This document shows, in pieces, positions 1 through 48,145 of a DNA stretch of 64,000 nt. Under the pieces are notes generated by a model, which saw only the letters and a list, made by a program, of their open reading frames with translations, was not told where the DNA came from and did not search any database. Within the stretch, counting starts at the first letter, position 1, and every line of letters starts with the position of its first letter. The position numbers and the translations under genes are program-made. The DNA comes from Rhizobium sp. 9140 (GTDB lineage: Bacteria; Pseudomonadota; Alphaproteobacteria; Rhizobiales; Rhizobiaceae), in NCBI RefSeq assembly GCF_900067135.1, contig NZ_FJUR01000003.1:62001-126000 (forward strand). The letters run 5' to 3'.

Positions 1-1
1 T

Positions 2-6920: not shown

Positions 6921-6934
6921 GCTGATCCGGCGGG

Positions 6935-8507: not shown

Positions 8508-8535
8508 GCCGACCGCCAGCCAGACTTTGACAATA

Positions 8536-8563
8536 CCCGCATATGGGCTTGAGCATATGCGGG
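8536..8563. promoter_or_regulatory. Inverted repeat upstream of traI (candidate LuxR-type box)
   Basis: Perfect 10-base arms CCCGCATATG (8536-8545) and CATATGCGGG (8554-8563) are separated by 8 bases. It lies 29 bases after the cinR-type stop and 61 bases before the traI start. No T-tract follows, which argues against an intrinsic terminator. The placement fits an operator controlling traI, but the sequence differs from the trbB palindrome. Confidence 0.45.
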
Positions 8564-8624
8564 AATATCTGGCTTCCCCGGGAGGCGGCATCTTCCAGCC
8601 ATCATCAACAGCTGGAGATAAACT

Positions 8625-9287: not shown

Positions 9288-9327
9288 CCCAGGAATTGGC
9301 CAAAGGGCGGTTGCGGCAACGTGTGCC

Positions 9328-10623: not shown

Positions 10624-10635
10624 ATCTGCCTCTCC

Positions 10636-11079: not shown

Positions 11080-11082
11080 CGA

Positions 11083-11913: not shown

Positions 11914-11928
11914 TGAAGTCCCCTGCCC

Positions 11929-28512: not shown

Positions 28513-28532
28513 TTCTCTATAATGAGCATTAT

Positions 28533-28557
28533 GTCCGATAATGCAAGATTATCGGAC
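28533..28557. repeat. Inverted-repeat site in the recombinase promoter region
   Basis: Perfect 10-base arms GTCCGATAAT and ATTATCGGAC around a 5-base centre (GCAAG). It shares TCCGATAA-N7-TTATCGGA architecture with the site at 27098-27130. It lies between the divergent recombinase and DUF1403 genes and could be a recombination core, an operator, or both. Confidence 0.6.
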
Positions 28558-28634
28558 GTTTTTATGTGACGACGGGCACGGCGGTTTATATAGTTCTGTG
28601 TTGTCAAAAGCGCCGTTTGAAGTTAGCGTGTGAC

Positions 28635-29588
28635 ATGGCTTCACGACCCCGTACCTTACCCGATTTGCCACCGACCTTCCCACCCGTGCCGGACTGGGCG
28701 CGCGCCGCCGGCGCCCGCCAAGCCGCCGGAGACGCCGAGCTTTTCGCCGGTGCTGCGCTTGGCAGCATTCACCAGATCGCCCGTGGCCACCATCCCCTGG
28801 GCCAGCTTTGGCGCCAGCGTCTGGCGCTTCAATCGGCGGAAGCGGTCGTCCGCCTGCAGGGCCGCACGGAAGATGCGGCGGCGCTGCGCGATCATCTCTA
28901 CCTGACCCGGCCCGGCGACGATCCCGGTCCCGCCGGCCGGATCCTGCAGGCCTGGCGGGCGCTGGGACGGGGATCGTCACTTGGGCCAGTATCACTCAAC
29001 GCCGAATGGCTGGTGATCTTCGCCGATCTGTTGTCGCTCACTATCGACGCACCGGCGCAGGAGGCCATCGACAATGCCCTGGCGGCGAGCGTCGGAACCA
29101 GGAACCCGATCGAGGCGGCGAGCGCGACGGTCGCAACCAGCCTGACTCTGCGTCCTGACAGCCGCCCGCTGGCGCTCTGGCTCGCCGATGCGGTACTTGC
29201 CCGGCGTCTGAACTGGCCAGTTCCCGTGCCGCTGCTGGCCGCGCATCTGAAGCGGGATGACTTGCGTTTCGCCGGCGGTCCGCGTGCCGATCCGCAACGG
29301 TGGCAGACCGCCTGTGCCTTTGCCTACGGGCGAGGGGCGACAGCGGCTTTCGATCTCTACGCTGATCTGGCACGGCGCGCGCACCGACTGCTGGCCCTGG
29401 CACCGCAATTGCGCAGCAAGGATGCCGACGCCATGGTGGCGATCCTGATCAGCGAAGATGCACAGGCAGCTCAGACCGGCCGGACAGTAAGCGACCGCTC
29501 GAGCCGGCGCCTGTTCGAGCGGCTGGTTGCACTCGGAGGCGTGCGCGAACTGACGGGACGTCCGACGTTCCGGCTTTATGGATTGTAA
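28635..29588 (+). CDS. DUF1403 family protein
   Basis: 317 residues from the ATG at 28635; the frame is open upstream to 28566. Recognisable DUF1403 features are PDWARAAGARQAAGDAELFAGAAL, LWRQRLALQSAEAVVRLQGR and the block EDAAALRDHLYLTRPGDDPGPAGR. It is soluble and Ala/Arg/Leu-rich with no catalytic motif I can name. Function is unknown; such genes are often next to recombinases on rhizobial plasmids. It ends 43 bases before the first IS21-family element. Confidence 0.7.
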   Translation: MASRPRTLPDLPPTFPPVPDWARAAGARQAAGDAELFAGAALGSIHQIARGHHPLGQLWRQRLALQSAEAVVRLQGRTEDAAALRDHLYLTRPGDDPGPAGRILQAWRALGRGSSLGPVSLNAEWLVIFADLLSLTIDAPAQEAIDNALAASVGTRNPIEAASATVATSLTLRPDSRPLALWLADAVLARRLNWPVPVPLLAAHLKRDDLRFAGGPRADPQRWQTACAFAYGRGATAAFDLYADLARRAHRLLALAPQLRSKDADAMVAILISEDAQAAQTGRTVSDRSSRRLFERLVALGGVRELTGRPTFRLYGL

Positions 29589-29763
29589 CCCACACCACCT
29601 TGGATAAGGGAGGGAACTGCGATGAAGAAACTGTCAACGGCGGAGTAAAATCCTGCCACGCGGCGGCGCAAAAGTCGGCCACTTGTGGCGCGCGCATGAG
29701 ACCGCCGGGAGGGCTTAGGCCCGAGCGGGGGTCTCATGCGCGCGTTGCGATTTTCGAAGGGCG

Positions 29764-30522
29764 TCAGCCGGCCTTTCGGGCGCGGCTTTGGGCGAGACGA
29801 TAGCTGTCGCCGTTCATCTCGAGGATGCTGACGTGATGGGTGATGCGGTCGAGCAAAGCGCCGGTCAGGCGCTCGGACCCCAAGGTTTCCGTCCATTCGT
29901 CAAAAGGAAGGTTGCTGGTGATCAGGGTCGCGCCTCGCTCGTATCGTTGCGAGATCAGCTCGAACAGCAATTCCGCGCCGGTCTTTGACAGCGGCACGAA
30001 GCCCAGTTCATCGATGATCAACAGCTGGTAGGCGGCCATCTGCTTCTGGAACCGGATGAGACGCCGCTCGTCGCGCGCCTCCATCATCTCGCTGACCAGT
30101 GCGGCCGCTGTCGTGAACCCAACGGACAGGCCCTTCTGGCAGGCGGCCAGGCCGAGGCCGAGCGCCACATGGGTCTTGCCCGTGCCGCTGGGGCCGAGAG
30201 CGATAACGTTCTCCCTGCGCTCGATCCATTCGCAGCGCGCCAGTTCCAGCACCTGCATCCTGTTCAGCTTTGGGATGGCGGCGAAGTCGAAACTGTCGAG
30301 GCTTTTGACGACCGGGAACCTGGCCGCCTTGATGCGACGCTCGACCTTGCGACGGTCCCGTTCGATCATCTCCCGCTCGGCAAGCCGGGTGAGGTATCCG
30401 ACATGATCGACGCCTTCGGTGGCGCACAGCCGGGCCAGCTTCTGGTACTCGCGCTGGAAACTCGGCAGCTTCAGGGTTTTGAGATAATGGGTGAGAAGGA
30501 TCTCGGGTGCTTGGGTGTTCAT
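29764..30522 (-). CDS. istB: IstB helper ATPase of IS21 (copy 1)
   Basis: 252 residues from the ATG at 30522, overlapping the istA stop (ATGA). Walker A is GPSGTGKTH and Walker B LLIIDELGFVPL, typical of the AAA+ IstB helper that selects target DNA. N-terminus MNTQAPEILLTHYLKTLKLP is the usual IstB start. Confidence 0.96.
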   Translation of the reverse strand: MNTQAPEILLTHYLKTLKLPSFQREYQKLARLCATEGVDHVGYLTRLAEREMIERDRRKVERRIKAARFPVVKSLDSFDFAAIPKLNRMQVLELARCEWIERRENVIALGPSGTGKTHVALGLGLAACQKGLSVGFTTAAALVSEMMEARDERRLIRFQKQMAAYQLLIIDELGFVPLSKTGAELLFELISQRYERGATLITSNLPFDEWTETLGSERLTGALLDRITHHVSILEMNGDSYRLAQSRARKAG

Positions 30523-32015
30523 GCGACTTCTCCCGCATCCGACGACAGGAGACGCATATACGCCTTCGCCGATGTCGTCTCGACCGTCGCCCTCGGCAAA
30601 TACGGGTAGATGGACAGGTCCAGTCTGGGCGGCCGGCGTTCCACCCGGCACAGGATCAGATGCTTGACGGCGTCAAAGCCAATGGCGCCAAGCTGGATCG
30701 CCTGCTTCACCGCCGCATGCAGATCGGCGAGTTCGAAGCTCTCCAGCAGGCGGAGGACCTGCACGTACTCACGCCGGCCGTGTTTGGCCATGCGGCCTTC
30801 CATCAACCGGCGCAGCGTAGCGAACTCTTGCGGCAAGTCCCAGCCCTGGAGGGGCGCTGCCTGATCCAGCGAATTGATCTTCTGCTCGATCAGCGGCAGG
30901 TAATGGACAGGATCGAAGACGACGTCTTCCCGTTCCCAGCACCGAGGATGGCGGGCGATGATCTCGCCACGGCCACCAATGACCACTTCGTTGACATAGC
31001 CGCGCACCCACACATCCTGATGGCCATAGGCGACCGGGACGGAATAGTCGTTGGTCTTGTAGCGCACCAGCGACTGCGCCGTCACCTTGGCACTTGCCTG
31101 GTCGCAGGCATCAAATGGCGAGGCTGGCAAGGCGCGCATGGCAGCCAGATCGCGCCGCAAGCGCTCGCCGATCGTCTCGCTCTCGCCGCGCAGCCTGTCG
31201 CGCTGGCGCTTCCGGCACTGCTCCTCCAGAAAGGTGTTGAACGCCTCCCATGTCGCAAACTGCGGGATCGGTACCATGAAGTTGCGCCGGGCATAGCCGA
31301 CGAGACCCTCGACGTTCCCCTTGTCGTTGCCCTTGCCGGGACGGCCATAGCGATCCCGGATAAGGTAGTGGGACAGGAAGCCGCTGAACAACGTCGCGCG
31401 CTTGCGGGTGCCGTCAGGCAAAATCTTCGCCACCAGGCAACGGTCGTTGTCGTAGACGATCGATTGCGGCACGGCGCCGAAGAAAGCGAACGCATGGACA
31501 TGGCCATCGACCCAGGCCTCGGCCACTGCCGCCGGATAGGCCCGCACGTAGCAGCCGTCGCTGTGCGGAAGGTCGAGCACGAAGAAATGCGCCTTCTGCT
31601 CGACACCGCCGATGACCACCATCGCCTCACCGAAATCGGCCTGCGCATGGCCGGGCGGATGCGACAGCGGCACGAACACTTCCTGGCGGCGCTGATCCCG
31701 CTCGCGCATGTAATCCTTGATGATCGTATAGCCGCCAGTGAACCCGCATTCGTCTCGAAGCCGGTCAAACACCCGCTTGGCCGTATGGCGCTGCTTGCGC
31801 GGCACTTGTCTGTCTTCGTCCAGCCAGTGATCGATCGTCGAGACAAACGCATCCAGCTTGGGCCGCCGGATCGGTGATTGTCGCTGATAGCCAGGTGGCG
31901 TCGAATAGGACAGCATCTTGGAAACGCTGTCGCGCGATATGTTGAAATGCTTTGCAGCCTGACGCCGGCTCATGCCTTCCGAGCAAGCCAGTCGAACCTT
32001 CAGATATAATTCCAC
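30519..32015 (-). CDS. istA: IstA transposase of IS21 (copy 1)
   Basis: 498 residues. An N-terminal HTH (MSRRQAAKHFNISRDSVSKM) is followed by the DDE integrase core: HAQADFGEAMVVIGG, SIVYDNDRCLV and a later Glu region around YGRPGKGNDKGNVEGLVGYA, plus a basic C-terminus. It is intact. Confidence 0.96.
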   Translation of the reverse strand: MELYLKVRLACSEGMSRRQAAKHFNISRDSVSKMLSYSTPPGYQRQSPIRRPKLDAFVSTIDHWLDEDRQVPRKQRHTAKRVFDRLRDECGFTGGYTIIKDYMRERDQRRQEVFVPLSHPPGHAQADFGEAMVVIGGVEQKAHFFVLDLPHSDGCYVRAYPAAVAEAWVDGHVHAFAFFGAVPQSIVYDNDRCLVAKILPDGTRKRATLFSGFLSHYLIRDRYGRPGKGNDKGNVEGLVGYARRNFMVPIPQFATWEAFNTFLEEQCRKRQRDRLRGESETIGERLRRDLAAMRALPASPFDACDQASAKVTAQSLVRYKTNDYSVPVAYGHQDVWVRGYVNEVVIGGRGEIIARHPRCWEREDVVFDPVHYLPLIEQKINSLDQAAPLQGWDLPQEFATLRRLMEGRMAKHGRREYVQVLRLLESFELADLHAAVKQAIQLGAIGFDAVKHLILCRVERRPPRLDLSIYPYLPRATVETTSAKAYMRLLSSDAGEVA

Positions 32016-32139
32016 GGTATAGATCCCCAGGCCCTCCTGCGCTCATTGCAGAAGAGAAATAGGTGGCCGACTTTTACGCCGCCCGAAGCGGGACAATCCC
32101 GCCGCTACCGTGGTCTAATTTTGCACCGCCGCTCTCAGC

Positions 32140-33222
32140 TTTTCGGAAGTCTTCGATCGCGAGCGCATCGGGATCTTCTTTGATCATTCGGTTATCGCCC
32201 CTGACAAACATATCGCGGCACGTTTGCGCGAAGCCGAACGTCTGGCCGAGCGCTTGGGCGTTCGGGTGTTCCGCGCTGGTGAAGGCATCAGTCATGTCGT
32301 CGCGCTAGAAGAGGGCTGGTACGAGCCTGGCACCATCGTCGTCGGTTCGGATTCTCACACCTGTACAGGTGGCGCAACGCAGTGCTTAGCATTGGGGATG
32401 GGGGCATCAGACTGCACAGCGGCGATGGTGACCGGAGAGACTTGGCTACGTGTCCCGGAAACCGTCTGGATAAACGTCCTCGGTCGTCCGGGCTCGGCTG
32501 CCCGCGCGCGTGACGTTGCACTTTTTGCCTTGGCGGAAAACACCCAGCTTCCATTTCTGTACAAGGCGGTTGAATGGACCGGGGAGTGGTTCAGCGAGCT
32601 AGGTCTCGACTCATGCGCCAGCGTTGCGAACCTCGGTGTGGAAATGGGCGCCAAATGCACGTTCCTTCCGCCGGGTGTTGGACGCCCGAGCAACATGCAG
32701 CCCATCAACCTGCCGGCCGCCGATGATCCCCGTGTCATCAGTTTGAACATCGACGGTTTGCCCCCGATGATATCGAAGCCGCATTCACCAGGTAACGCTG
32801 TGCCGATCAGCGAATGCGAGGGCCTGCAAATCAACTATGTCTTTATAGGCACCTGTACGAACGGGAGACTTGAAGACATTGCAGAAGCGGCTGAGGTGCT
32901 TGGTGGCGCCAAGGTTCGGGCGGGCGTTCAATGTCTTGTCACTCCAGGCTCACAGCGCGTTTATCTCGAAGCGATGGAGCTCGGATATATCACCAAACTC
33001 GTGCGAGCAGGCGCAATCATTTCGCCTCCGGGATGCAGTGCGTGTCTCGGGACCCAAGGCAGCATCCCCGCGTCTGGCGACCGCGTCCTTTCCACCATGA
33101 ACCGGAATTTCCTAGGGCGGATGGGGAATCCGGAGGCGGAAATCTATCTGGCCTCCCCTCTCGTCGCGGCTCACACCGCTATCCGCGGCGAGCTGCCCAA
33201 GCTTTCGGAGTTGACCTCATGA
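32140..33222 (+). pseudogene. leuC-like aconitase-family large subunit, 5' truncated by IS21
   Basis: The frame is homologous immediately from the IS edge (EVFDRERIGIFFDHSVIAPDKH) through GSDSHTCTGGATQCLALGMGASD and VFIGTCTNGRLEDIAEAAEVL to the C-terminus, with the Fe-S Cys residues (SDSHTC region, GTCTN, SPPGCSACLG). The N-terminal 50-60 residues are missing. The first usable start is a TTG at 32224, inside the domain. The family is 3-isopropylmalate dehydratase/homoaconitase; its neighbours suggest a role in a phosphonate version of the TCA steps. Its stop overlaps the small-subunit start. Confidence 0.85.
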
Positions 33223-33734
33223 CTGTACTTACCCTTTTGCGCGTCCGGAAGATCGACCGCGTCATTTCGACGGACGACATCATTCCCGGCCGATACAAAC
33301 ATATGTTCACCGACACAAACGAGCTTGCCAAGCATGTGTTCGAGAACATTTTTCCTGGGCTGGCCGCAACTTTCCGGCCAAGGGATGTCATTTGCAGCAG
33401 CACAACCTTTGGGATCGGTAGCTCTCGAGAGCAGGCGGTCAGTTCCCTTTTCGCCGCCGGCATCAACGCGGTGATTGCACCCAGCTTTGGCCGCATCTTC
33501 TTTCGGAACGCCTGGAATCTCGGACTGATAGCGATCGAAGTTGCTGACCTGCAGGTTTCGGAGGGCGACGTTATCTCTGTCGACCTCCATTCCGGCCAGG
33601 TCGCGGGCGCCGTCCGTCCCGCAAACTTCTCACCGCCGCCAGCCCGCATGCTTGAAATGATCAACGCTGGCGGCCTCTTGCCATTGATTGCAACGCGTTT
33701 TGCTGCGCAAGGAAGAATTCAGCTCGGAGGTTAA
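33219..33734 (+). CDS. leuD-like aconitase-family small subunit
   Basis: 171 residues from the ATG at 33219 (ATGA overlap with the large subunit). ISTDDIIPGRYKHMFTD, the TTFGIGSSREQA block and IAPSFGRIFFRNAWNLGLI are the LeuD swivel-domain signatures. It normally works with the large subunit, which is truncated here, so the hydro-lyase is probably dead. Confidence 0.9.
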   Translation: MTVLTLLRVRKIDRVISTDDIIPGRYKHMFTDTNELAKHVFENIFPGLAATFRPRDVICSSTTFGIGSSREQAVSSLFAAGINAVIAPSFGRIFFRNAWNLGLIAIEVADLQVSEGDVISVDLHSGQVAGAVRPANFSPPPARMLEMINAGGLLPLIATRFAAQGRIQLGG

Positions 33735-33739
33735 CAGAA

Positions 33740-34678
33740 ATGACGATAGGAAATCGAATCCTGCCAGAGAAGCGGCGGGCCAAGCTTCAACAGCTCCTGT
33801 CTGCGGGCGCATTGGTGCGGGCAATCGAGGCGCACAGTGGAATCTCCGCCCTCATATCTAGCGAAACGTCGGGGGTCGGAAATGGCCACGAAGGCCGCCG
33901 CTTCGACGCGCTCTGGCTCTCCAGTCTGACCAGTTCTGCGGCCCGCGCGCTGCCGGACATGGAGCTCTATGCGCTGGAGCGCCGGCTGGAGCTGGTGGAC
34001 GAAATTTTGAGTGCGACCTCCAAGCCGTTGATTGTCGACGGCGATACAGGCGGGGATCCCACTGCGTTCGAGTATCTCTGCGCTCGCCTTGAATCCGCGG
34101 GTGTCAGTGCCGTCGTCATTGAAGACAAGCAGCACCCCAAACGCAACAGCCTCTCTTTGAGTTCAACCCACGTTCTCGAGGATCCCGTCACGTTCGGCCA
34201 AAAGATCTATCGCGGGCGCGAGGCTCTTCTGTCCGAAGATTTCCGGATATTTGCCCGTTTGGAGAGCTTGATCGCCGGCGAAACGGTCGAGGACGCTCTG
34301 CGGCGCGCACGAGTCTACCTGGAACACGGCGCCCACGGTGTCATGATTCATTCGAAGGAACGCGGGCCTACCAGCGTCTTTGAGTTCCTGGATCGCTTCC
34401 GCGGTGAGGGTTTTACCCAGCCGGTGATCTGCGTACCCACGACCTACAACAATGTGCGGGCGCAGGATCTTCATGCACGAGGCGCGAGTATCGTTATTCA
34501 CGCAAACCATCTTTTGCGCGCCTCCCACTTCGCCATGCGTCAGATCTGCATGTCTTTGCTCGAAAACGACAGATCAATGGAAGCCGACAATATCATCACC
34601 CCCGTCGCGGAAATCTTCCGAGAAGTTGGTTACGACGCCGCGCTGGCCAGAGACGCCGCCAGGGACAGCGCAAGCTGA
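33740..34678 (+). CDS. Phosphoenolpyruvate mutase (PEP mutase family)
   Basis: 312 residues. The isocitrate-lyase/PEP-mutase barrel shows EAHSGISALI, DALWLSSLTSSAAR, PLIVDGDTGGDP, the diagnostic loop VVIEDKQHPKRNSL (EDKxxPKxNS), ARLESLIAGETVEDALRRA, MIHSKERGP, VPTTYNN and IHANHLLRAS, close to characterised PEP mutases. Asn in the KRNS motif favours mutase over phosphonopyruvate hydrolase. It would isomerise PEP to phosphonopyruvate, the entry step to nearly all natural phosphonates. No phosphonopyruvate decarboxylase gene follows. A short insert (SGVGNGHEGRR, about residues 44-54) is unusual. Confidence 0.85.
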   Translation: MTIGNRILPEKRRAKLQQLLSAGALVRAIEAHSGISALISSETSGVGNGHEGRRFDALWLSSLTSSAARALPDMELYALERRLELVDEILSATSKPLIVDGDTGGDPTAFEYLCARLESAGVSAVVIEDKQHPKRNSLSLSSTHVLEDPVTFGQKIYRGREALLSEDFRIFARLESLIAGETVEDALRRARVYLEHGAHGVMIHSKERGPTSVFEFLDRFRGEGFTQPVICVPTTYNNVRAQDLHARGASIVIHANHLLRASHFAMRQICMSLLENDRSMEADNIITPVAEIFREVGYDAALARDAARDSAS

Positions 34679-34687
34679 CGAACGCGC

Positions 34688-35740
34688 ATGGATATCTTGA
34701 TCCTGGACGGGGACGGTATAGGCCCTGAGATAGCCGCCTCTTGCGCTGACATCCTCGTTTATTTGAACAAGGAACGCGACCTTGGGCTCACACTGGAGCG
34801 CCGCGCGCTGGGACTGGCGACGCTTGCTAAAGAGGGCTCAACTCTTCCCTCGTCCGTCCGCAGTGCGGCAGAAGCCGCGGACGGAATTGTGCTCGCGCCC
34901 CTTTCAACCTTCAGCTACCCCACTGCTGAACTCGGTGGGGTCAACGCATCTGCTGAATTCCGCACGGGGCTTGATCTCTTCGCCAATTTTCGACCTTGTC
35001 GGAGCCGTAAAAAATTCGACCGATCGGTTGACGTCGACCTAGTTGTCGTCCGTGAGAACACGGAAGGATTCTATGCCTGTCGCACGATGCACGCCGGATC
35101 GGGAGAATTCATGCCCGATCCAGACACCGCGTTTGCATTGCGTAAGATTACATCCGCCGCCAGCGCCGCCATCGCGCATGAGGCCCTGCAACTCGCATCG
35201 GCGCGCCGCAAGAAGTTGGCGGTAATTCACAAGGCCAATGTTCTGAAACTCTCGGACGCATTGTTTCTGCAGGCGGTGCGCTCGGCGGCGATGGACTTTG
35301 AGGACGTCATTATTGAGGAATTACTGGTCGATACAGCGGCCGCGCTTTTAGTCCGCGATCCCGGGCAATTCGATGTTCTGCTCACGACCAACATGTTCGG
35401 CGATATCCTTTCCAATGAAGCAGCCGAGATCGCTGGAGGGTTGGGCATGGCACCCTCACTCAATGCCGGTAACGAACGTGCCATGGCGCAAGCCGCACAC
35501 GGATCGGCCCCTGACATCGCGGGACAAAACAGGGCCAACCCGACAGGACTTATCCTCTCGAGTGCAATGCTGCTCGATTGGCTCGGCCGGCGGGCAAAAC
35601 GAGACGATCTTATCGATGCGGCGAAAGCGATCGAGATAGCGATCGATTTGACGCTGGCAGAGACAGGCATGTGTACCCCTGACCAGGGCGGAAGCGCCAC
35701 AACCTCTCAATTCACCCATTCCGTCATTCAGAAATTGTAA
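34688..35740 (+). CDS. Isocitrate/isopropylmalate dehydrogenase-family enzyme
   Basis: 350 residues. ILDGDGIGPEIAASC at the start, VVVRENTEGFYACRT (phosphoserine-loop/Tyr region), AVIHKANVLKLSDALF (catalytic Lys), LLTTNMFGDILSNEAAEIAGG (metal-binding Asp) and AAHGSAPDIAGQNRANPTGL. It catalyses NAD(P)-dependent oxidative decarboxylation of a 2-hydroxyacid next to a carboxylate. In the FR-900098 pathway a homologue converts 3-phosphonomethylmalate to 2-oxo-4-phosphonobutyrate, which fits the neighbours. It starts 9 bases after the PEP mutase gene. Confidence 0.88.
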   Translation: MDILILDGDGIGPEIAASCADILVYLNKERDLGLTLERRALGLATLAKEGSTLPSSVRSAAEAADGIVLAPLSTFSYPTAELGGVNASAEFRTGLDLFANFRPCRSRKKFDRSVDVDLVVVRENTEGFYACRTMHAGSGEFMPDPDTAFALRKITSAASAAIAHEALQLASARRKKLAVIHKANVLKLSDALFLQAVRSAAMDFEDVIIEELLVDTAAALLVRDPGQFDVLLTTNMFGDILSNEAAEIAGGLGMAPSLNAGNERAMAQAAHGSAPDIAGQNRANPTGLILSSAMLLDWLGRRAKRDDLIDAAKAIEIAIDLTLAETGMCTPDQGGSATTSQFTHSVIQKL

Positions 35741-35752
35741 GCGAGGCGCGTC

Positions 35753-37003
35753 ATGAACAAAAAGGCCATCCGTCAAATGTTCATGGCCTTTGCGGTCTTT
35801 GCTGGAGCTCCAGGACCCACAATGAGCCAAGAACAAACGGATGCGCTCGACCGCGCCTCAAAGCAGCTAGTGGAACCATTCCTACAGGCCACACGAAAGA
35901 TGGTGGAGATTGAATCTCCTTCGCTGGACGCAACTGGCATCCATGCAATGGAGGTTGAATTGGAGTCCCAGGCACGTGAGATCGGTGCGGAGATTGAGCT
36001 CATCCCTGCCAGCACCGGGCCGGGAAATAACGTGGTTGCAAGATGGCGAGGTCAGGGCAAGACGAACATTCTGTTGGTTTCCCATATGGACACGGTATAT
36101 CCGGCAGGAATTCTGCAAACCTTTCCATGGCGAGAGGAGGTAAGTCGGATCTACGGGCCTGGCGTCCTCGATGACAAAGGTGGCATTGCAATGGCGCTGA
36201 TGGCCGTCCGCCTGCTTCGGGAGGCGGGACGGGATGCGTACGGGACAGTGACCCTGTTAAGCACAACGGACGAGGAGAAGCAGTCGGCGGGATCAAAGGA
36301 GCTCATCAGGTCGCTTGCGCAAGAACATGATGTCGCCTTCGTCCTTGAATTCGGCACTCCGGATGATCGCATCGTGCTCTCACGCAAGGGCATCGGCTAC
36401 TTCCGGTTGGACGTCCTTGGCAAAGCTGCGCATGCAGGCGCGGAGCCGGAAAAGGGATGCAATGCCGTGACTGAGATTGCCTTCCAGATTCTGCAGATGA
36501 GGCAATTGGAGCGGCCGGAGCTGAGCACATCATTCAATTTCACGATTCTGAACGGCGGCGAGCGGAGCAATATCATTCCCGCTCAGGCGAAGGCCCAGGC
36601 AGACGTGCGTGTTCTGGATCCCAGCGAATTCGACCGTCTCGAAAGCGACGCGGCTCAACTGGCCGCTACGAAACAGCTCTTTGCCTGCTCACAGGTGCGG
36701 ACATCGCTGGAACGCGGGCGCCCTCCATTCCCTTCGACCGATAAAACCGCGAGATTGGTGGAAATGGCGCAGGGCATCTATCGTGAAATCGACATGGACC
36801 TAAGAACGGAGGCCAGCGGGGCTGGGACAGACGGAAATTACACCGCTGCAGCCGGAACAACGACACTCGACGGACTTGGACCTGTAGGTGGCGGCGCTCA
36901 CACAGCTGGCGAGAAGTATATTGAACGGGCGCTTATCGCACCACGCATCTACCTGCTGGCGCGATTGATCGAAGAAGTTTCCCGCGAAAGTTTTTCAAAG
37001 TGA
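35753..37003 (+). CDS. M20-family metallopeptidase (glutamate carboxypeptidase-like), probably exported
   Basis: 416 residues. A short hydrophobic N-terminus (FMAFAVFAGAPGPTMS) may be a signal peptide. The dinuclear zinc pattern is visible: LLVSHMDTVYPAG (His, Asp), YGPGVLDDKGGIAMAL (Asp), LLSTTDEEKQSAGS (Glu-Glu), VLEFGTPDD and GGGAHTAGEKY (final His). Glutamate-carboxypeptidase-type enzymes cleave C-terminal acidic residues. Placed 12 bases after the dehydrogenase gene, it may process a peptide or amide derivative of the pathway product. Its 3' end overlaps the convergent lysR by 55 bases. Confidence 0.87.
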   Translation: MNKKAIRQMFMAFAVFAGAPGPTMSQEQTDALDRASKQLVEPFLQATRKMVEIESPSLDATGIHAMEVELESQAREIGAEIELIPASTGPGNNVVARWRGQGKTNILLVSHMDTVYPAGILQTFPWREEVSRIYGPGVLDDKGGIAMALMAVRLLREAGRDAYGTVTLLSTTDEEKQSAGSKELIRSLAQEHDVAFVLEFGTPDDRIVLSRKGIGYFRLDVLGKAAHAGAEPEKGCNAVTEIAFQILQMRQLERPELSTSFNFTILNGGERSNIIPAQAKAQADVRVLDPSEFDRLESDAAQLAATKQLFACSQVRTSLERGRPPFPSTDKTARLVEMAQGIYREIDMDLRTEASGAGTDGNYTAAAGTTTLDGLGPVGGGAHTAGEKYIERALIAPRIYLLARLIEEVSRESFSK

Positions 37004-37884
37004 TCGCCTTTCTGGTTCGATGATTGAGCGAATTCGTGAGCCGCGTCCGTTAGCCAAGTGCAAAATGTGACGGACTTCTTGTTGCGCTGTCTACGCCGCA
37101 AGGCGACATACGTTTGGCCGCTGTCTGTAAAGCCAAATGGAGCGACCAGCCTGCCAGCCGCAATATCGTCAGCGACAAGCGGCCACGGCGCGATACAGAT
37201 GCCCAAACCCGCCACAGCAGCTTCGAGCATGAAGTAGAAATGTTCGAATTCCGTTCCGTGCTCGGCATCAACCTTCACGCTTGATCGAGCGATCCAATTT
37301 TCCCAAGCTGATTGGCGGGTTTGCGTACGCAGAAGAGGCAATGTGAAAATGTTCTCCCGCTGCAAATTCAGGTTTGCCGCGTGAACGGGTCCAAACTTCT
37401 CTGCGAATAAGGGAAACACCTCGCAGTCCTCGGGCCACGGCTCCTGGCCCACACGAATTGCGACGTCAAAACGTTCGCGCGAGAAATCAACCGGTGAGTC
37501 CGCCGTGCTTAAACGGACGTCGATCGATCCGTGATCGGCCCGGAAGCGATGAAGTCGTGGGATTAACCATTTCATCAAGAAAGTACCAAGGCAGGAGACG
37601 TCTAACGATCCGGATTCGGCATCTGTCACGAGGCGAACCGTCGAATCAATTTGATCAAAGGCGGCACTCAGGCCCGGAATTAAAGTCTTGCCTGCGTCAG
37701 TGAGTTTAGGGGCATGCTTCGGTCCCTCGAACAATGGCGTGCCTAGAAGCTCTTCCAAATGTTGGATTTGGCGGCTGACTGCACTGTGGGTCACATTTAG
37801 TTCTTCCGCCGCAAGCTTCATCAGACCCAAGCGACCTGCCGCCTCGAAAGCACGAAGGGCATTAAGTGAAGGCAATCGGCGCAT
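36949..37884 (-). CDS. LysR-family regulator (GcvA-like)
   Basis: 311 residues. The N-terminal winged HTH reads PSLNALRAFEAAGRLGLMKL, LNVTHSAVSRQIQHLEELLG; the C-terminal periplasmic-binding-like domain includes FDVAIRVGQEPWPED and GLGICIAPWPLVADDI. It converges on the peptidase gene and may regulate the phosphonate-like block or the upstream DUF1127/EamA genes. Confidence 0.92.
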   Translation of the reverse strand: MRRLPSLNALRAFEAAGRLGLMKLAAEELNVTHSAVSRQIQHLEELLGTPLFEGPKHAPKLTDAGKTLIPGLSAAFDQIDSTVRLVTDAESGSLDVSCLGTFLMKWLIPRLHRFRADHGSIDVRLSTADSPVDFSRERFDVAIRVGQEPWPEDCEVFPLFAEKFGPVHAANLNLQRENIFTLPLLRTQTRQSAWENWIARSSVKVDAEHGTEFEHFYFMLEAAVAGLGICIAPWPLVADDIAAGRLVAPFGFTDSGQTYVALRRRQRNKKSVTFCTWLTDAAHEFAQSSNQKGDHFEKLSRETSSINRASR

Positions 37885-37987
37885 ATGTTCGTATTCCTCA
37901 CATAGTTATTTCGAAGAAATCGATTATCTGCAGGGGTTTAGGGCGCTACAGACATACATGTATTGGAGAAAATTGCGAGTCCTGGAT

Positions 37988-38149
37988 ATGAATGGTCTCC
38001 TCACTTGGTCGATAAAAGTTCTCGCGCGGTGGGCCGATCGGTCTCGTCAGCGCAGATATCTAGCGGACCTTGAGCATTACCAACTCACCGACATAGGGAT
38101 CTCGTCCGAACAACGACGCTGCGAATGCGCGAAATGGTTTTGGCGATAG
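37988..38149 (+). CDS. DUF1127 small protein
   Basis: 53 residues from the ATG at 37988. The C-terminal RRYLADLEHYQLTDIGISSEQRRCECAKWFWR is the DUF1127 pattern (L..L....L.DIG.S......E..K.FWR), a short Arg-rich domain common in Rhizobiales and linked to phosphate and carbon regulation via RNA in Agrobacterium. An ATG at 37958 is an alternative start. Confidence 0.78.
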   Translation: MNGLLTWSIKVLARWADRSRQRRYLADLEHYQLTDIGISSEQRRCECAKWFWR

Positions 38150-38220
38150 TTCCGTGAAATTAAGCACCTTACGGATTACGCGATAAACGGCTCAAACTAT
38201 CAAATGAAAAAATAGTAACA

Positions 38221-39090
38221 ATGACTTTTGCAGCCATTTTCCTTGTTGTTCTAGCAGCTCTTGTTCACGCAACGTGGAACTTGCTGTCTAAACGTGCGTC
38301 ATCTGTCGGCCCGACCTTTGTGTTCGCTTATAATTTCGTTGCGTGCGTTGCGTATGCACCTTGGGTCATTTACTTGATCGCGCGACAAACTATTCAATGG
38401 GACTGGTCAGTGGTTGGTTTTATTGTATGCAGCGGTTTGATCCATCTCGCCTATAGTTTGTCTCTTCAGCGTGGATATCAAAAGGCGGACTTCTCAGTCG
38501 TCTATCCCGTTGCTCGGGGAACTGGGCCAATGCTGTCAACTTTCGGTGCCATACTACTTCTTGGCGAGCGCCCTCCTATCCAGGTCATTGCCGGTCTCAT
38601 GGCTGTTGTTGGCGGGATTGCGTTGATTGCAACGCAGGGCAGGCTCGAAGCTTTTCGTAAACCTGGAGGTCTGACCGGTATAAAGTGGGGAACGACAACT
38701 GGCGGACTAATTGCATCTTATACTGTGGTTGATGCCTATGCGGTGAAAGCCCTTGGAATAGCTCCCGTAGTATTGGACTGGTTTTCCAATCTTCTGCGTT
38801 TTTTTCTCCTCGCTCCACTGGTGATTGCTGATCCTGGCCGGGCTAGAGCCGCGATGCGCGGATACTGGCTGCTGGCAGTTGGCGTAGGACTGCTATCTCC
38901 GCTCTCCTATATTCTGATCCTAACCGCGCTAAATATGGGTGCCCCGCTCAGCATAGTGGCACCGATGCGCGAAATGTCCATGATGATCGGAGCTGTAATG
39001 GGGATGGTCATCCTACGCGAATCCGTTGGGCTGTGGCGTATTGTTGGATGTGCGGTTCTTGTCCTAGGTGTTGTTTTGCTGACGTCGTGA
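38221..39090 (+). CDS. EamA/DMT-family transporter
   Basis: 289 residues and about ten hydrophobic helices in two EamA repeats (VLAALVHATWNLLSKRAS in the first; a second starting about residue 155). GERPPIQVIAGLMAVVGGIAL and RESVGLWRIVGCAVLVLGV close each half in typical fashion. These carriers often export small metabolites; export of a phosphonate product would fit but is not shown. The start is immediately after AAAAATAGTAACA with no clear Shine-Dalgarno. Confidence 0.88.
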   Translation: MTFAAIFLVVLAALVHATWNLLSKRASSVGPTFVFAYNFVACVAYAPWVIYLIARQTIQWDWSVVGFIVCSGLIHLAYSLSLQRGYQKADFSVVYPVARGTGPMLSTFGAILLLGERPPIQVIAGLMAVVGGIALIATQGRLEAFRKPGGLTGIKWGTTTGGLIASYTVVDAYAVKALGIAPVVLDWFSNLLRFFLLAPLVIADPGRARAAMRGYWLLAVGVGLLSPLSYILILTALNMGAPLSIVAPMREMSMMIGAVMGMVILRESVGLWRIVGCAVLVLGVVLLTS

Positions 39091-39237
39091 ACCACAGTCG
39101 CCACGCAAGCTCTAGAGTGCTAACTCCACCGACATCCCTCGTTGTCGGGCCCCACTCTTTACAAGTACGTCATTCGTGCAAAAGCAGCGGAGTACGAACT
39201 TTCAAGAATCGGCTCCTCGCAGAGATCGCGAGTAGGG

Positions 39238-39612
39238 CTAGCTTGTAGCACGATGCTCGCGGTTGGTTTGGCCGACGCGGCTTGCCCGAGCTACCCCGTG
39301 TTCGACCAGGCAATCGATTATTTCGGCATAGTCAGCCGTTGCCTTCGCGTACATGCTGATGTTGGTGAAGCCCGGAATGGTGTTCACCTCGTTGACGACG
39401 AATGTCATATCCGGCGTCAGGTTGACACGCGCATGCTATCGCAGCCGAGAGCCCTGAACGCCAGGGCGGCCATGTCGCGCGTTCGCGCTTCCACCTGTGG
39501 CGGCGGCGCCGTCGGCACTTTGAGCGCAGCCCCGTCCTCATCGAGGTATTTTGCGTAATAGCTGTTGAACCCATGGGTTTCTGCCGAAGCGATCTCGCCG
39601 GGGATTTCAGCA
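39238..39612 (-). pseudogene. ddl: D-alanine--D-alanine ligase C-terminal fragment, frameshifted
   Basis: Read on the minus strand, GEIASAETHGFNSYYAKYLD leads through ALAFRALGCDSM in one frame. After a frame break near 39435 it continues as LTPDMTFVVNEVNTIPGFTN, ISMYAKATADYAEIIDCLVE and stops at 39238. These are the ATP-grasp C-terminal motifs of Ddl (NEVNTxPGFT). Both the N-terminal two thirds and frame continuity are missing. It is a decayed fragment next to the AbiE promoter. Confidence 0.82.
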
Positions 39613-39688
39613 TTTGCTGAACATAACTCGTGGAGTGAAATAAGTTGACAAATTTCACCGGTTTGGCCATTTTCAGCAGATGCTGAAA
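39606..39688 (+). promoter_or_regulatory. abiEi promoter with two palindromic operators, apparently leaderless
   Basis: Two copies of TTCAGCA-NN-TGCTGAA lie at 39606-39621 and 39672-39687, the second spanning the abiEi start codon. Between them is a consensus -35 TTGACA (39645-39650). A 17-base spacer places a weak -10 CATTTT at 39668-39673, so transcription would begin at about 39680, the A of the ATG. No Shine-Dalgarno is present. Characterised AbiEi proteins repress their promoter through paired inverted repeats. Confidence 0.68.
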
Positions 39689-40756
39689 ACTATTAACGAA
39701 GTGAACGAGCTAGAGGACCAGGCGACTGAAGCGATCACCGCACTGTTGCACGCTGTCCCTTTCGTTCAGATGATGAAAGTCGAACAGGCGCCATCAAATT
39801 CTGGTTTCGACATTCTTGTTGAACTCAGTTGGGAAGGGCATAGCCGCTTTCTCGCCTGCGAAGTCAAAGCTCAAGGGCAGCCGCGGCATGTGCGCGCGGC
39901 GCTCCTTCAACTTCGCAAGACTGCGAAAATGTTTGATCCGCGGGCGATGCCGATCTTCATCGCACCATATATATCTCCCGAAGCGCAAGCGCTCTGCAAT
40001 GAGTTTGAAGTAGGATATCTCGACCTGGTCGGAAATGCGCGGATCGTCTTCGATACCGTCTTTATCGAGCGTCGGGTCGACACGAAGCCGCCTGCCATTC
40101 AGCGAAGCCTGAAATCCATCTTCAAGCCAAAATCCGCGCAGGTTTTGAGAGTGCTCCTCCGCGATCCGGATCGCGCATGGCGCGTGGCGGATCTCGCCCA
40201 CACCGCAGAGGTAAGTCTCGGACATGTCAGCAACGTTCGCAGCGAGCTGGTGGATCGGGAATGGGCAGAGGTCGCAGATGACGGCCTGCGGTTGTCGCGC
40301 CCCGACGCGCTGCTGGATGCCTGGCGCGACGCTTATGAACCACCGCCCGGCGAACGCATGGGCTTCTATACAACACTCCATGGCCAATCTCTGGAGGACG
40401 CGGCGCGGGGTGTTCTCAGCGTAAGGAGTGATGGGCGGAACGCGATTTTCGCATCCTTTTCGGCGGCGCATTGGCTGGCGCCTTACGGGCGGGTAGCGAC
40501 CCAATATTTTTACGCGGATCCCGCCGGACTGACGGCCTTGCGCACTGCTCTCAAACTGTCACCCGCGACATCGGGGGCAAATATCGTGGTCACTGTTCTG
40601 AAGGACCATGGCCTATTCAATGACGCCACCGAGCCTGCTCCGGGAGTTGTCTGTACAAGCCCAGTACAAACTTATCTCGATCTTGCCGTATCAGGAGAGC
40701 GCGGCGCCGAGGCGGCTGAACACCTCAGACAGGACCTTCTTACATGGCAAAGATAG
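39680..40756 (+). CDS. AbiEi-type antitoxin/repressor (type IV TA)
   Basis: 358 residues. The N-terminal ~120 residues look like a restriction-endonuclease-fold section (GFDILVELSWEGHSRFLACEVKAQG, then FEVGYLDLVGNARIVFD). A winged HTH (AQVLRVLLRDPDRAWRVADLA) and the AbiEi C-terminal domain (TSPVQTYLDLAVSGERGAEAAEHLR) follow. AbiEi proteins are antitoxins and autorepressors of AbiEii toxins. It overlaps the next gene by 13 bases. Confidence 0.83.
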   Translation: MLKTINEVNELEDQATEAITALLHAVPFVQMMKVEQAPSNSGFDILVELSWEGHSRFLACEVKAQGQPRHVRAALLQLRKTAKMFDPRAMPIFIAPYISPEAQALCNEFEVGYLDLVGNARIVFDTVFIERRVDTKPPAIQRSLKSIFKPKSAQVLRVLLRDPDRAWRVADLAHTAEVSLGHVSNVRSELVDREWAEVADDGLRLSRPDALLDAWRDAYEPPPGERMGFYTTLHGQSLEDAARGVLSVRSDGRNAIFASFSAAHWLAPYGRVATQYFYADPAGLTALRTALKLSPATSGANIVVTVLKDHGLFNDATEPAPGVVCTSPVQTYLDLAVSGERGAEAAEHLRQDLLTWQR

Positions 40757-41613: not shown

Positions 41614-41664
41614 CGTCGTTGAGGCGTTTGTGGGGCGAAATATAAAAAGACGATTGGGGGCAAT

Positions 41665-44625: not shown

Positions 44626-44806
44626 TTTATTCATCCGTCTGCACGGGTGGTGGCATCCTGAGCCATGCTCAGTCTCTCCGAGCGGCAATGACGCACTCCG
44701 AGGCGCGGGAGTTCGGCCCGGGAAATCGAGGATTAGATCCCATCAAACCTGCGCCAAGCCTCTAATCCGGACCGGCATTTTGATAGGGATAGACCGGCTC
44801 CGCCGA

Positions 44807-45685
44807 CTAACTCGACAACAAGAAGCCAGCGAGTACCTCGTTGAAACGGTCTGGCGCCTCGATAAAGGAAAAGTGCGCCCCACCTTCATTCTCGTCGAAG
44901 ATGATCAGCTTTGATCCCGCGATCTGACTGTGAATCCACTTCTGCGAGCGAGCGTCGACATGACTGACACGGCCTCCCACGATGAGCGTTGGCCGGTCGA
45001 TCCGGGTAAGAATATCACTCCAGTCGATTGAGCAGTGATTGACGAAAAGGCTAGCGGCAAGCCGGGGATCCACCCTGAGGTTCTCCGCCAGCAGCCAATC
45101 CTTTAGCTCTGTCGGGATTTGTTTGGTCACCATTGAGTCGAGAAAGGCGCTTCGTGTTGCATGGCCATCGGCGCCCATGATTTGCTCAGCAATTGAAAGC
45201 ATGGTGGCGCTGTCAAAAAGGGCACCCGCATTGACCACATCCTCTTCGCTCATTCCGGGCTGGCGCATCACAGACGCCGGTTCATCAACGAAGACCAGGC
45301 GGTCAATCTGCCTGGTGCCGCACAGGTCGATCATTGCCCAGGCCACAGAGGCTCCCATCGACCACCCGACAATGTCAGCGCGTTCGATTTGCTCATGCTG
45401 CATCAGTTCCTGTACGTCGCGGGCGAACCGATAGATCCGATAACCATGCGTCGCATCGGGGGATTGACCATGCCCACGAAAGTCGAGTGCGATGACGCGC
45501 CGACTTTTTGATAGATGGACGATCTGATGCCGGAACATTGCCGCCGACTGCGACCAGCCGGGCAACAGGATCAGTGCTTTGCCTGATCCCTCATCGGTAT
45601 AGGCGAGTGTTGCCCCGTCTGTCAACGGCGGAGTAAAATCCTGCCACGCGGCGGCGCAAAAGTCGGCCACTTGTGGCGCGCGCAT
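44807..45685 (-). CDS. Alpha/beta hydrolase with IS-derived N-terminus
   Basis: 292 residues. The hydrolase body starts at DGATLAYTDEGSGKALILLPG and contains RVIALDFRGHGQSPD, the nucleophile elbow VGWSMGAS and a late DVDARS/GGAHFSFIEAP acid-His region. The first 22 residues (MRAPQVADFCAAAWQDFTPP...) are encoded by the left end of IS copy 2, so the native start was lost and replaced in frame. Only a few native residues appear missing; activity and expression depend on IS-borne signals. Substrate unknown. Confidence 0.8.
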   Translation of the reverse strand: MRAPQVADFCAAAWQDFTPPLTDGATLAYTDEGSGKALILLPGWSQSAAMFRHQIVHLSKSRRVIALDFRGHGQSPDATHGYRIYRFARDVQELMQHEQIERADIVGWSMGASVAWAMIDLCGTRQIDRLVFVDEPASVMRQPGMSEEDVVNAGALFDSATMLSIAEQIMGADGHATRSAFLDSMVTKQIPTELKDWLLAENLRVDPRLAASLFVNHCSIDWSDILTRIDRPTLIVGGRVSHVDARSQKWIHSQIAGSKLIIFDENEGGAHFSFIEAPDRFNEVLAGFLLSS

Positions 45686-45751
45686 GAGACCGCCGGGAGG
45701 GCTTAGGCCCGAGCGGGGGTCTCATGCGCGCGTTGCGATTTTCGAAGGGCG

Positions 45752-46510
45752 TCAGCCGGCCTTTCGGGCGCGGCTTTGGGCGAGACGATAGCTGTCGCCG
45801 TTCATCTCGAGGATGCTGACGTGATGGGTGATGCGGTCGAGCAAAGCGCCGGTCAGGCGCTCGGACCCCAAGGTTTCCGTCCATTCGTCAAAAGGAAGGT
45901 TGCTGGTGATCAGGGTCGCGCCTCGCTCGTATCGTTGCGAGATCAGCTCGAACAGCAATTCCGCGCCGGTCTTTGACAGCGGCACGAAGCCCAGTTCATC
46001 GATGATCAACAGCTGGTAGGCGGCCATCTGCTTCTGGAACCGGATGAGACGCCGCTCGTCGCGCGCCTCCATCATCTCGCTGACCAGTGCGGCCGCTGTC
46101 GTGAACCCAACGGACAGGCCCTTCTGGCAGGCGGCCAGGCCGAGGCCGAGCGCCACATGGGTCTTGCCCGTGCCGCTGGGGCCGAGAGCGATAACGTTCT
46201 CCCTGCGCTCGATCCATTCGCAGCGCGCCAGTTCCAGCACCTGCATCCTGTTCAGCTTTGGGATGGCGGCGAAGTCGAAACTGTCGAGGCTTTTGACGAC
46301 CGGGAACCTGGCCGCCTTGATGCGACGCTCGACCTTGCGACGGTCCCGTTCGATCATCTCCCGCTCGGCAAGCCGGGTGAGGTATCCGACATGATCGACG
46401 CCTTCGGTGGCGCACAGCCGGGCCAGCTTCTGGTACTCGCGCTGGAAACTCGGCAGCTTCAGGGTTTTGAGATAATGGGTGAGAAGGATCTCGGGTGCTT
46501 GGGTGTTCAT
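45752..46510 (-). CDS. istB: IstB helper ATPase of IS21 (copy 2)
   Basis: 252 residues and identical to the copy 1 protein, with Walker A GPSGTGKTH and Walker B LLIIDELGF. The start overlaps the istA stop. Confidence 0.96.
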   Translation of the reverse strand: MNTQAPEILLTHYLKTLKLPSFQREYQKLARLCATEGVDHVGYLTRLAEREMIERDRRKVERRIKAARFPVVKSLDSFDFAAIPKLNRMQVLELARCEWIERRENVIALGPSGTGKTHVALGLGLAACQKGLSVGFTTAAALVSEMMEARDERRLIRFQKQMAAYQLLIIDELGFVPLSKTGAELLFELISQRYERGATLITSNLPFDEWTETLGSERLTGALLDRITHHVSILEMNGDSYRLAQSRARKAG

Positions 46511-48003
46511 GCGACTTCTCCCGCATCCGACGACAGGAGACGCATATACGCCTTCGCCGATGTCGTCTCGACCGTCGCCCTCGGCAAATACGGGTAGATG
46601 GACAGGTCCAGTCTGGGCGGCCGGCGTTCCACCCGGCACAGGATCAGATGCTTGACGGCGTCAAAGCCAATGGCGCCAAGCTGGATCGCCTGCTTCACCG
46701 CCGCATGCAGATCGGCGAGTTCGAAGCTCTCCAGCAGGCGGAGGACCTGCACGTACTCACGCCGGCCGTGTTTGGCCATGCGGCCTTCCATCAACCGGCG
46801 CAGCGTAGCGAACTCTTGCGGCAAGTCCCAGCCCTGGAGGGGCGCTGCCTGATCCAGCGAATTGATCTTCTGCTCGATCAGCGGCAGGTAATGGACAGGA
46901 TCGAAGACGACGTCTTCCCGTTCCCAGCACCGAGGATGGCGGGCGATGATCTCGCCACGGCCACCAATGACCACTTCGTTGACATAGCCGCGCACCCACA
47001 CATCCTGATGGCCATAGGCGACCGGGACGGAATAGTCGTTGGTCTTGTAGCGCACCAGCGACTGCGCCGTCACCTTGGCACTTGCCTGGTCGCAGGCATC
47101 AAATGGCGAGGCTGGCAAGGCGCGCATGGCAGCCAGATCGCGCCGCAAGCGCTCGCCGATCGTCTCGCTCTCGCCGCGCAGCCTGTCGCGCTGGCGCTTC
47201 CGGCACTGCTCCTCCAGAAAGGTGTTGAACGCCTCCCATGTCGCAAACTGCGGGATCGGTACCATGAAGTTGCGCCGGGCATAGCCGACGAGACCCTCGA
47301 CGTTCCCCTTGTCGTTGCCCTTGCCGGGACGGCCATAGCGATCCCGGATAAGGTAGTGGGACAGGAAGCCGCTGAACAACGTCGCGCGCTTGCGGGTGCC
47401 GTCAGGCAAAATCTTCGCCACCAGGCAACGGTCGTTGTCGTAGACGATCGATTGCGGCACGGCGCCGAAGAAAGCGAACGCATGGACATGGCCATCGACC
47501 CAGGCCTCGGCCACTGCCGCCGGATAGGCCCGCACGTAGCAGCCGTCGCTGTGCGGAAGGTCGAGCACGAAGAAATGCGCCTTCTGCTCGACACCGCCGA
47601 TGACCACCATCGCCTCACCGAAATCGGCCTGCGCATGGCCGGGCGGATGCGACAGCGGCACGAACACTTCCTGGCGGCGCTGATCCCGCTCGCGCATGTA
47701 ATCCTTGATGATCGTATAGCCGCCAGTGAACCCGCATTCGTCTCGAAGCCGGTCAAACACCCGCTTGGCCGTATGGCGCTGCTTGCGCGGCACTTGTCTG
47801 TCTTCGTCCAGCCAGTGATCGATCGTCGAGACAAACGCATCCAGCTTGGGCCGCCGGATCGGTGATTGTCGCTGATAGCCAGGTGGCGTCGAATAGGACA
47901 GCATCTTGGAAACGCTGTCGCGCGATATGTTGAAATGCTTTGCAGCCTGACGCCGGCTCATGCCTTCCGAGCAAGCCAGTCGAACCTTCAGATATAATTC
48001 CAC
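46507..48003 (-). CDS. istA: IstA transposase of IS21 (copy 2)
   Basis: 498 residues and identical to the copy 1 protein: N-terminal HTH, DDE core, basic tail. Intact, so either copy could supply transposase to both. Confidence 0.96.
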   Translation of the reverse strand: MELYLKVRLACSEGMSRRQAAKHFNISRDSVSKMLSYSTPPGYQRQSPIRRPKLDAFVSTIDHWLDEDRQVPRKQRHTAKRVFDRLRDECGFTGGYTIIKDYMRERDQRRQEVFVPLSHPPGHAQADFGEAMVVIGGVEQKAHFFVLDLPHSDGCYVRAYPAAVAEAWVDGHVHAFAFFGAVPQSIVYDNDRCLVAKILPDGTRKRATLFSGFLSHYLIRDRYGRPGKGNDKGNVEGLVGYARRNFMVPIPQFATWEAFNTFLEEQCRKRQRDRLRGESETIGERLRRDLAAMRALPASPFDACDQASAKVTAQSLVRYKTNDYSVPVAYGHQDVWVRGYVNEVVIGGRGEIIARHPRCWEREDVVFDPVHYLPLIEQKINSLDQAAPLQGWDLPQEFATLRRLMEGRMAKHGRREYVQVLRLLESFELADLHAAVKQAIQLGAIGFDAVKHLILCRVERRPPRLDLSIYPYLPRATVETTSAKAYMRLLSSDAGEVA

Positions 48004-48145
48004 GGTATAGATCCCCAGGCCCTCCTGCGCTCATTGCAGAAGAGAAATAGGTGGCCGACTTTTACGCCGCCCGAAGCGGGACAATCCCGCCGCTACCGTG
48101 GTCTAATTTTGCACCGCCGCTCTCAGCAGACTACAACCGCGCGAA

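Follow-up and report, generated by a model that had tools for sequence, protein, structure and literature searches.

The question raised by this locus is whether a gene for a phosphoenolpyruvate (PEP) mutase, standing between relatives of LeuC and LeuD and a relative of isocitrate dehydrogenase, belongs to a phosphonate biosynthetic pathway, and whether that pathway is still complete. The locus (32138-37003) lies in a 64,000-nucleotide stretch of contig NZ_FJUR01000003.1 of Rhizobium sp. 9140, the whole of which is referred to here as the window. Judging from the sequence, the block is quite probably an inactivated remnant of a plasmid-borne upper pathway of the FR-900098 type, which leads to 2-oxo-4-phosphonobutyrate and in which a two-subunit LeuCD replaces the single-chain aconitase. 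An earlier note, made from the letters of the window alone, had taken the block for what remains of a rhizobial plasmid phosphonate pathway, and this view is supported by the residues of the mutase, a synthase of the HvrC clade in a nearly identical plasmid, and collinear relatives.

Gene organization of the block

Open reading frame (ORF) calls combined with Pfam and NCBIfam models placed five genes in one tight run on the forward strand: a leuC-like gene for the large subunit of an aconitase/isopropylmalate dehydratase (32138..33222), a leuD-like gene for the small subunit (33219..33734), the PEP mutase gene (33740..34678), a gene for an isocitrate/isopropylmalate-dehydrogenase-like enzyme proposed to be a phosphonomethylmalate dehydrogenase (34688..35740), and an M20 peptidase gene (35753..37003), the product of which scored above the cut-off of NF004788, a glutamate carboxypeptidase subfamily. 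The leuC-like and leuD-like genes overlap by 4 bases, and gaps of 5, 9, and 12 bases separate the genes that follow; the order, coordinates, and spacing described in the earlier note were thereby confirmed. Aconitase, Aconitase_C, PEP_mutase, Iso_dh, and Peptidase_M20 of Pfam were all found above their own cut-offs. The leuC-like frame is open from the boundary of an IS21-family element, and its 5' end is missing, amounting to approximately the first 50 codons with an intact 411-aa relative as the reference. The source contig comprises 163,068 bases in a seven-contig genome and, since window positions 8000 to approximately 22500 match the trb and rep regions of rhizobial and related plasmids, the DNA is likely to be a plasmid.

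Loss of the upstream step at the IS21 junction

The IS21-family element is 2,506 bases long and carries istA/istB-type ORFs. Its first copy (29632..32137, reverse strand) abuts the truncated leuC with its right end, and a second copy, 100% identical and in the same orientation (45620..48125, reverse strand), bounds the other end of a 13,482-base segment (32138-45619). A 38.9-kb stretch of the Agrobacterium tumefaciens plasmid pAtCFBP6625a (CP039912; locus L005) was read for comparison. It is 98.8% identical to the window over 28453-29631 and 99.99% identical over 32138-45619, with a single mismatch in 13,482 bases, at window position 36914. At the site of the first IS21 copy, this plasmid has 3,928 other bases, which comprise the greater part of a small hypothetical gene, scpB, a MocR-like aminotransferase gene, a synthase gene, and approximately the first 50 codons of leuC. 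The synthase is a 380-aa protein with HMGL and HCS_D2 domains, encoded directly before leuC; in the MocR-like gene, the aminotransferase-type part alone was open and a full regulator frame was not seen. At the site of the second copy, the plasmid has 8,744 bases (30811-39554), to the right of which the window resumes a 100% match up to its end. Genes for an aminotransferase, an acetolactate-synthase-like protein, and an aldehyde dehydrogenase are included in these 8,744 bases.

The earlier note had suggested that a synthase step lay upstream of leuC and was lost at the IS21 insertion, and it had called for an intact locus with a homocitrate-synthase-like gene before leuC; the A. tumefaciens plasmid has such a gene at the very place where the window has IS21. 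Regarding components by which an FR-900098-type cluster may be recognized, an isocitrate-dehydrogenase-like gene is present in the window, and a phosphonomethylmalate (PMM) synthase is absent from its locus, missing at the IS21 junction. No close copy of the synthase was found elsewhere in the same genome, where the best of three matches was 33%. No target duplication was found at either IS21 copy; its absence would be expected after deletions accompanying IS21 activity or after recombination between the copies, one or the other of which may have operated here.

Identity of the PEP mutase

The window mutase contains, as EDKQHPKRNS, the motif EDKX5NS described for PEP mutases (PMC12723261). In an alignment, it agrees with the Mytilus PEP mutase at 12 of the 12 active-site positions checked and has L48/N122-type residues, whereas the hydrolase rows (Variovorax and three rhizobial proteins, two of which are annotated as hydrolases) differ at two of these positions, with F and T. 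The roles of the checked positions are presumed. Among the five families compared, TIGR02320 gave the best score (290.5 bits, versus 141 for the hydrolase model and 76 for the methylisocitrate lyase model).

In a tree of 38 rows, the window mutase falls in a 31-row group that is split with support of 100/100 from a 7-row group, and it lies outside the HvrA group. The 7-row group consists of the four hydrolase rows and the mutases of Mytilus, 5unc, and Streptomyces scopuliridis; since it holds these three mutases, the split is not one of mutases from hydrolases. Within the larger group, the window mutase belongs to a 17-row subgroup (100/97) together with the mutases of loci L004, L015, L016, L076, and L098 and the protein of locus L006. 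The residues count for more than the tree because the hydrolase group holds mutases and because the window side includes L006, with its hydrolase-type residues. With this caveat, the phylogeny and the active-site comparison advised in the earlier note set the window protein apart from the phosphonopyruvate hydrolases, and its identification as a hydrolase, lyase, or decarboxylase was rejected on residues, family scores, and tree.

The L006 gene itself (9992-10909, Agrobacterium vitis pAvCG78a), which belongs to the window mutase group and has the F/T residues, adjoins genes for a citryl-CoA lyase and a CoA transferase. Its product, for which the exact position in the tree is weakly supported, possibly changed function independently.

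Synthase and gene order in intact relatives

The A. tumefaciens synthase belongs to a clade of 11 rows (100/100) that includes Pantoea HvrC, a flavophos-type synthase of Burkholderia stagnalis, and others, and from which three NifV/homocitrate synthase rows are excluded; branches among the outgroups of this tree were long, and this clade alone was used. A NifV/homocitrate synthase identity of the lost gene was rejected on this tree. Another of the 11 members, on plasmid p1 of Bradyrhizobium sp. 62B (locus L100, 12001-13158), has genes for a PhnF-type regulator, two methyltransferases, and an ABC transporter in its vicinity, with no mutase annotated beside it in the 25 kb read.

The order synthase-leuC-leuD-pepM-dehydrogenase is collinear in A. 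tumefaciens (L005), Bradyrhizobium japonicum (L004), and Halomonas (L015), each with a gene of the PMM synthase clade, and the order is therefore not due to chance. Locus L098, from a genome of the window's own family, has the same five genes with three others between pepM and the dehydrogenase gene. In a genome scan based on the mutase alignment, 80 of 104 loci were kept, many of which were short contigs; the synthase, leuC, and leuD occurred together in three of the 80 (L015, L016, and L076), with the dehydrogenase as well in one (L015). The mutase was found in 4 of 394 genomes of the family at E ≤ 1e-40 (the source genome included) and, at E ≤ 1e-60, in 1 of 397 genomes of the order (the source genome only) and 4 of 398 of the phylum (the source genome included). 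None of 246 genomes of one other family had it at E ≤ 1e-70, an empty answer that shows nothing because the scan had no positive. When seven genomes of the genus were scanned with the window DNA, two gave a match, namely, the source genome and one with the dehydrogenase stretch only, at 67%.

Signature of the dehydrogenase

The window dehydrogenase has GDILSN (N243) in place of GDILSD, and GD[IV]LSN is shared with the dehydrogenases of L004, L015, and L098. At the same site, Asp occurs in L104, L117, and L118, the last being the sole one of these three seen with annotated neighbors, as well as in three PDB homologues, and Ser occurs in a Streptomyces enzyme. We take the Asp to serve the metal site in this dehydrogenase family. 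Among the best 120 of 7,998 homologues at E ≤ 1e-30, 31 had Asn and 89 had Asp; Asn was present in all 12 dehydrogenases paired with contigs that matched the mutase versus 19 of the 108 others (Fisher value of 1.3e-8). The pairing was made indirectly, by equality between the length of the longest contig and that of a contig with a mutase hit, some of the contigs being short, and the 19 Asn rows are without a paired mutase contig. Since two changes on a 130-row dehydrogenase tree suffice for the Asn rows, Asn marks one clade, and the Fisher value overstates independence because the change to Asn is close to a single event.

Proposed pathway and alternative explanations

Beyond the observed gene content, collinearity, loss, active-site residues, and clades, we infer every substrate and product named below, as well as the fate of 2-oxo-4-phosphonobutyrate. 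In the intact form, PEP mutase would convert PEP to phosphonopyruvate, which the homocitrate-synthase-like PMM synthase would combine with acetyl-CoA to give 2-phosphonomethylmalate, thereby pulling the mutase step forward. LeuCD would then convert 2-phosphonomethylmalate to the isocitrate-like 3-phosphonomethylmalate, the dehydrogenase would yield 2-oxo-4-phosphonobutyrate by oxidative decarboxylation, and a cellular transaminase could turn this product into 2-amino-4-phosphonobutyrate, an isostere of phosphoserine. Since the window has an IS21 copy in place of the synthase gene and the 5' end of leuC, its version of the pathway should be dead. PMM synthase steps have been described (PMC7858074, PMC12871164), and FrbABCDE together with a cellular transaminase make 2-amino-4-phosphonobutyrate, named nhpSer, in E. 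coli (PMC10141581).

Several points weigh against this assignment. The LeuCD reaction could end with the dehydrated compound phosphonomethylmaleate, a course proposed for the pantaphos pathway, and the replacement of Asp by Asn could mean that the dehydrogenase has an altered chemistry other than normal oxidative decarboxylation. The score of the mutase falls short of the TIGR02320 equivalog cut-off (290.5 < 319.55 bits), as does that of the A. tumefaciens synthase for nifV (404 < 463), so that curated models name neither. Moreover, L006 combines hydrolase-type residues with a position on the window side of the mutase tree, and most of the mutases close enough to be fetched lie outside a set of synthase, leuC, and leuD (found at 3 of 80 loci).

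If LeuCD only dehydrated 2-phosphonomethylmalate to phosphonomethylmaleate, as in the pantaphos type, the dehydrogenase would do something else or nothing in the pathway. The placement of LeuCD beside the synthase is indeed the pantaphos arrangement (PMC7858074), and L016 and L076 carry the synthase, LeuCD, and the mutase without a match to the window dehydrogenase. However, neither HvrB nor HvrF of Pantoea has a relative in the A. tumefaciens locus or the window, the mutase is outside the HvrA group, and tight linkage to a dehydrogenase from a distinct subfamily is seen in L005, L004, and L015; we consider this explanation improbable. A catabolic or hydrolytic locus, in which the mutase-like enzyme would be a phosphonopyruvate hydrolase, a lyase, or an oxaloacetate decarboxylase and the block would degrade some compound, is suggested by the presence of such enzymes in the mutase superfamily, by the dehydrogenase relative L118, which has GDILSD and lies in a catabolic-looking locus, and by the residues of L006. 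The EDKX5NS motif, the L48/N122-type residues, the tree, the family scores, and the PMM-synthase-clade gene in all three collinear relatives leave this explanation with very little probability. It is just as hard to credit a 2-oxoacid chain elongation of the homocitrate or leucine type, unconnected with phosphonates and with the mutase as a hitch-hiker: the synthase, LeuC, LeuD, and the dehydrogenase are homologues of enzymes of those pathways, but the NifV rows fall outside the clade that the synthase shares with HvrC and the flavophos-type synthase, and at three collinear loci the mutase gene is enclosed by the run, with leuD before it and the dehydrogenase gene after it.

Comparison with known systems

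The FR-900098 system (FrbA-E, Streptomyces rubellomurinus) shares a PEP mutase, a PMM synthase, an aconitase-type isomerase, and an isocitrate-dehydrogenase-like enzyme with the window family, whereas the latter has a two-subunit LeuCD instead of the aconitase FrbA and one dehydrogenase instead of FrbB and FrbE. FrbA is presumably a single-chain aconitase. The mutase of a Streptomyces AcnA-type cluster falls in the other group of the mutase tree, a comparison that does not extend to the frb sequences themselves. The FR-900098 route passes through 2-oxo-4-phosphonobutyrate and then 2-amino-4-phosphonobutyrate (PMC10141581, PMC13302981).

The pantaphos genes (hvr, Pantoea) resemble the block at 43% for PEP mutase, 61% for PMM synthase (to L005), 53% for LeuC, and 47% for LeuD. 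Besides HvrB, the hvr stretch contains a methyltransferase and an MFS gene, and it has no match to the window dehydrogenase, whereas the block has the dehydrogenase and no relative of HvrB; tblastn with this flavin monooxygenase (from Pantoea locus L007) gave no match at E ≤ 1e-5 in the window or L005. Relatives of Pantoea hvr also occur on a plasmid of the insect symbiont Candidatus Stammera capleta (L102, CP144779, 8,749 bases; 1-7083), comprising PEP mutase, HvrB, HvrC, LeuC, LeuD, a methyltransferase, and a transporter (29%). Organisms with Candidatus names accounted for 22 records in the plasmid search with the mutase and for 22 in that with the synthase, and a literature search on Stammera and phosphonates found no paper.

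The flavophos (Burkholderia) and Pseudomonas fosfomycin route, which leads to 3-oxo-4-phosphonobutanoate (PMC12871164), shares the PMM synthase clade and has a DMT permease with 32% identity to the window EamA. It differs in that relatives of the gene at 8442-9194 of locus L110 (assumed to be the PsfC counterpart) and of the 3-keto-5-aminohexanoate cleavage protein were not found in the window or L005, where the L110 genes at 8442-9194 and 9247-10146 had no match at E ≤ 1e-5. Locus L110 (Burkholderia stagnalis plas2, 6983-12307) is a plasmid-borne flavophos-type set of PEP mutase, lumazine synthase, 3-keto-5-aminohexanoate cleavage protein, DMT transporter, and a PMM-synthase-clade gene.

Pmi acts on a malate with a P-C bond in a step like that of aconitase; it concerns a phosphinate, not a phosphonate, and is likened to the present system by chemistry, not sequence. 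Its name, phosphinomethylmalate isomerase, is given in the context of phosphinothricin tripeptide (PMC12723261).

A possible wider family with glycolysis-like enzymes

L004, L015, and L098 each carry a type II glyceraldehyde-3-phosphate dehydrogenase (GAPDH-II) that contains an SCNTTGL motif and scores above the cut-off of PRK04207, a 2-hydroxyacid dehydrogenase for which the best model is phosphoglycerate dehydrogenase (below the cut-off), and a common unknown protein of 259-295 aa. The Halomonas locus adds triosephosphate isomerase, and that of B. japonicum adds prs, a phosphoribosyltransferase, and ribulose-phosphate epimerase. A plasmid of S. scopuliridis with AcnA, synthase, mutase, and dehydrogenase also has prs and GAPDH-II, as well as a protein related to the unknown one over 120 residues (29%, E 4e-6). 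A structure model of the unknown protein was discarded (mean pLDDT of 34), and its profile comparison with GAPDH-II gave a probability of 9.5. The Halomonas GAPDH-II, hydroxyacid dehydrogenase, and unknown protein, among others, had no match in the 38.9-kb stretch of L005 or the window, and GAPDH-II had none in the source genome.

Since 2-oxo-4-phosphonobutyrate is phosphohydroxypyruvate with CH2 for O, a phosphoglycerate-dehydrogenase-like enzyme and GAPDH-II are expected partners. We tentatively raise the possibility, which is open to considerable doubt, that the window block belongs to a wider family mirroring serine and glycolytic metabolism with P-CH2 for P-O, members of which would produce compounds isosteric with 3-phosphoglycerate, with glyceraldehyde-3-phosphate, and, beyond these, with sugars resembling phosphoribosyl pyrophosphate; the Agrobacterium branch would stop at the isostere of phosphohydroxypyruvate or phosphoserine, and the Asn dehydrogenase would mark the LeuCD type. 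A rival explanation is that the glycolysis-like genes are self-resistance copies, as is lumazine synthase in flavophos (PMC12871164). GAPDH-II matched 37 plasmid records, and among the 25 listed, those of B. japonicum and S. scopuliridis were the recognized PMM-synthase records. An Acidovorax plasmid has GAPDH-II with a hydroxyacid dehydrogenase and ribose-phosphate pyrophosphokinase, and Methylocystis and Rhodococcus plasmids have it near metal pumps, in each case with no mutase annotated in the stretch read; these occurrences weaken the link of GAPDH-II and the hydroxyacid dehydrogenase to phosphonates.

Neighboring genes

A LysR-family regulator gene (GcvA-like; 36949..37884, reverse strand) is convergent with the M20 peptidase gene, and an EamA/DMT permease gene, a candidate exporter, follows (38221..39090, forward strand). 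Any role of these three genes in the pathway is putative. Neither the M20 peptidase nor the LysR regulator had a match in the nine relative loci searched. Regarding the earlier suggestion that EamA exports the product, related permeases do occur at three PMM-synthase loci (43-45% in L076, 32% in L110, and 28% in L015); the suggestion is nevertheless weak because such relatives are common, with one (32%) in L085, where a mutase occurs but no match to the synthase, and because the window protein misses the TIGR03340 cut-off (124.8 versus 288.15). Three consecutive ORFs (358, 289, and 986 aa) occupy 39680-44625; judged by eye only, the first two look like a pair of the AbiE type, and the third is PHP/ATPase-like.

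Significance

Gene cluster families 2 and 6-9, the products of which are unknown and which putatively proceed via 2-phosphonomethylmalate (PMC12871164), may include clusters of the window type. Neither such a cluster in rhizobia nor a GAPDH-linked version was described in the titles and opening abstract text searched, a coverage outside which most subscription journals fall. Phosphonates of this route include the antimalarial FR-900098 and the plant toxin pantaphos, and for the version with LeuCD and a dehydrogenase on plasmids of plant-associated bacteria, the dehydrogenase signature provides a handle for finding such clusters. If the wider family is real, those relatives that carry glycolysis-like enzymes would offer a supply of stable compounds mimicking central metabolites. 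The window itself illustrates how an insertion element may cost a pathway its driving step.

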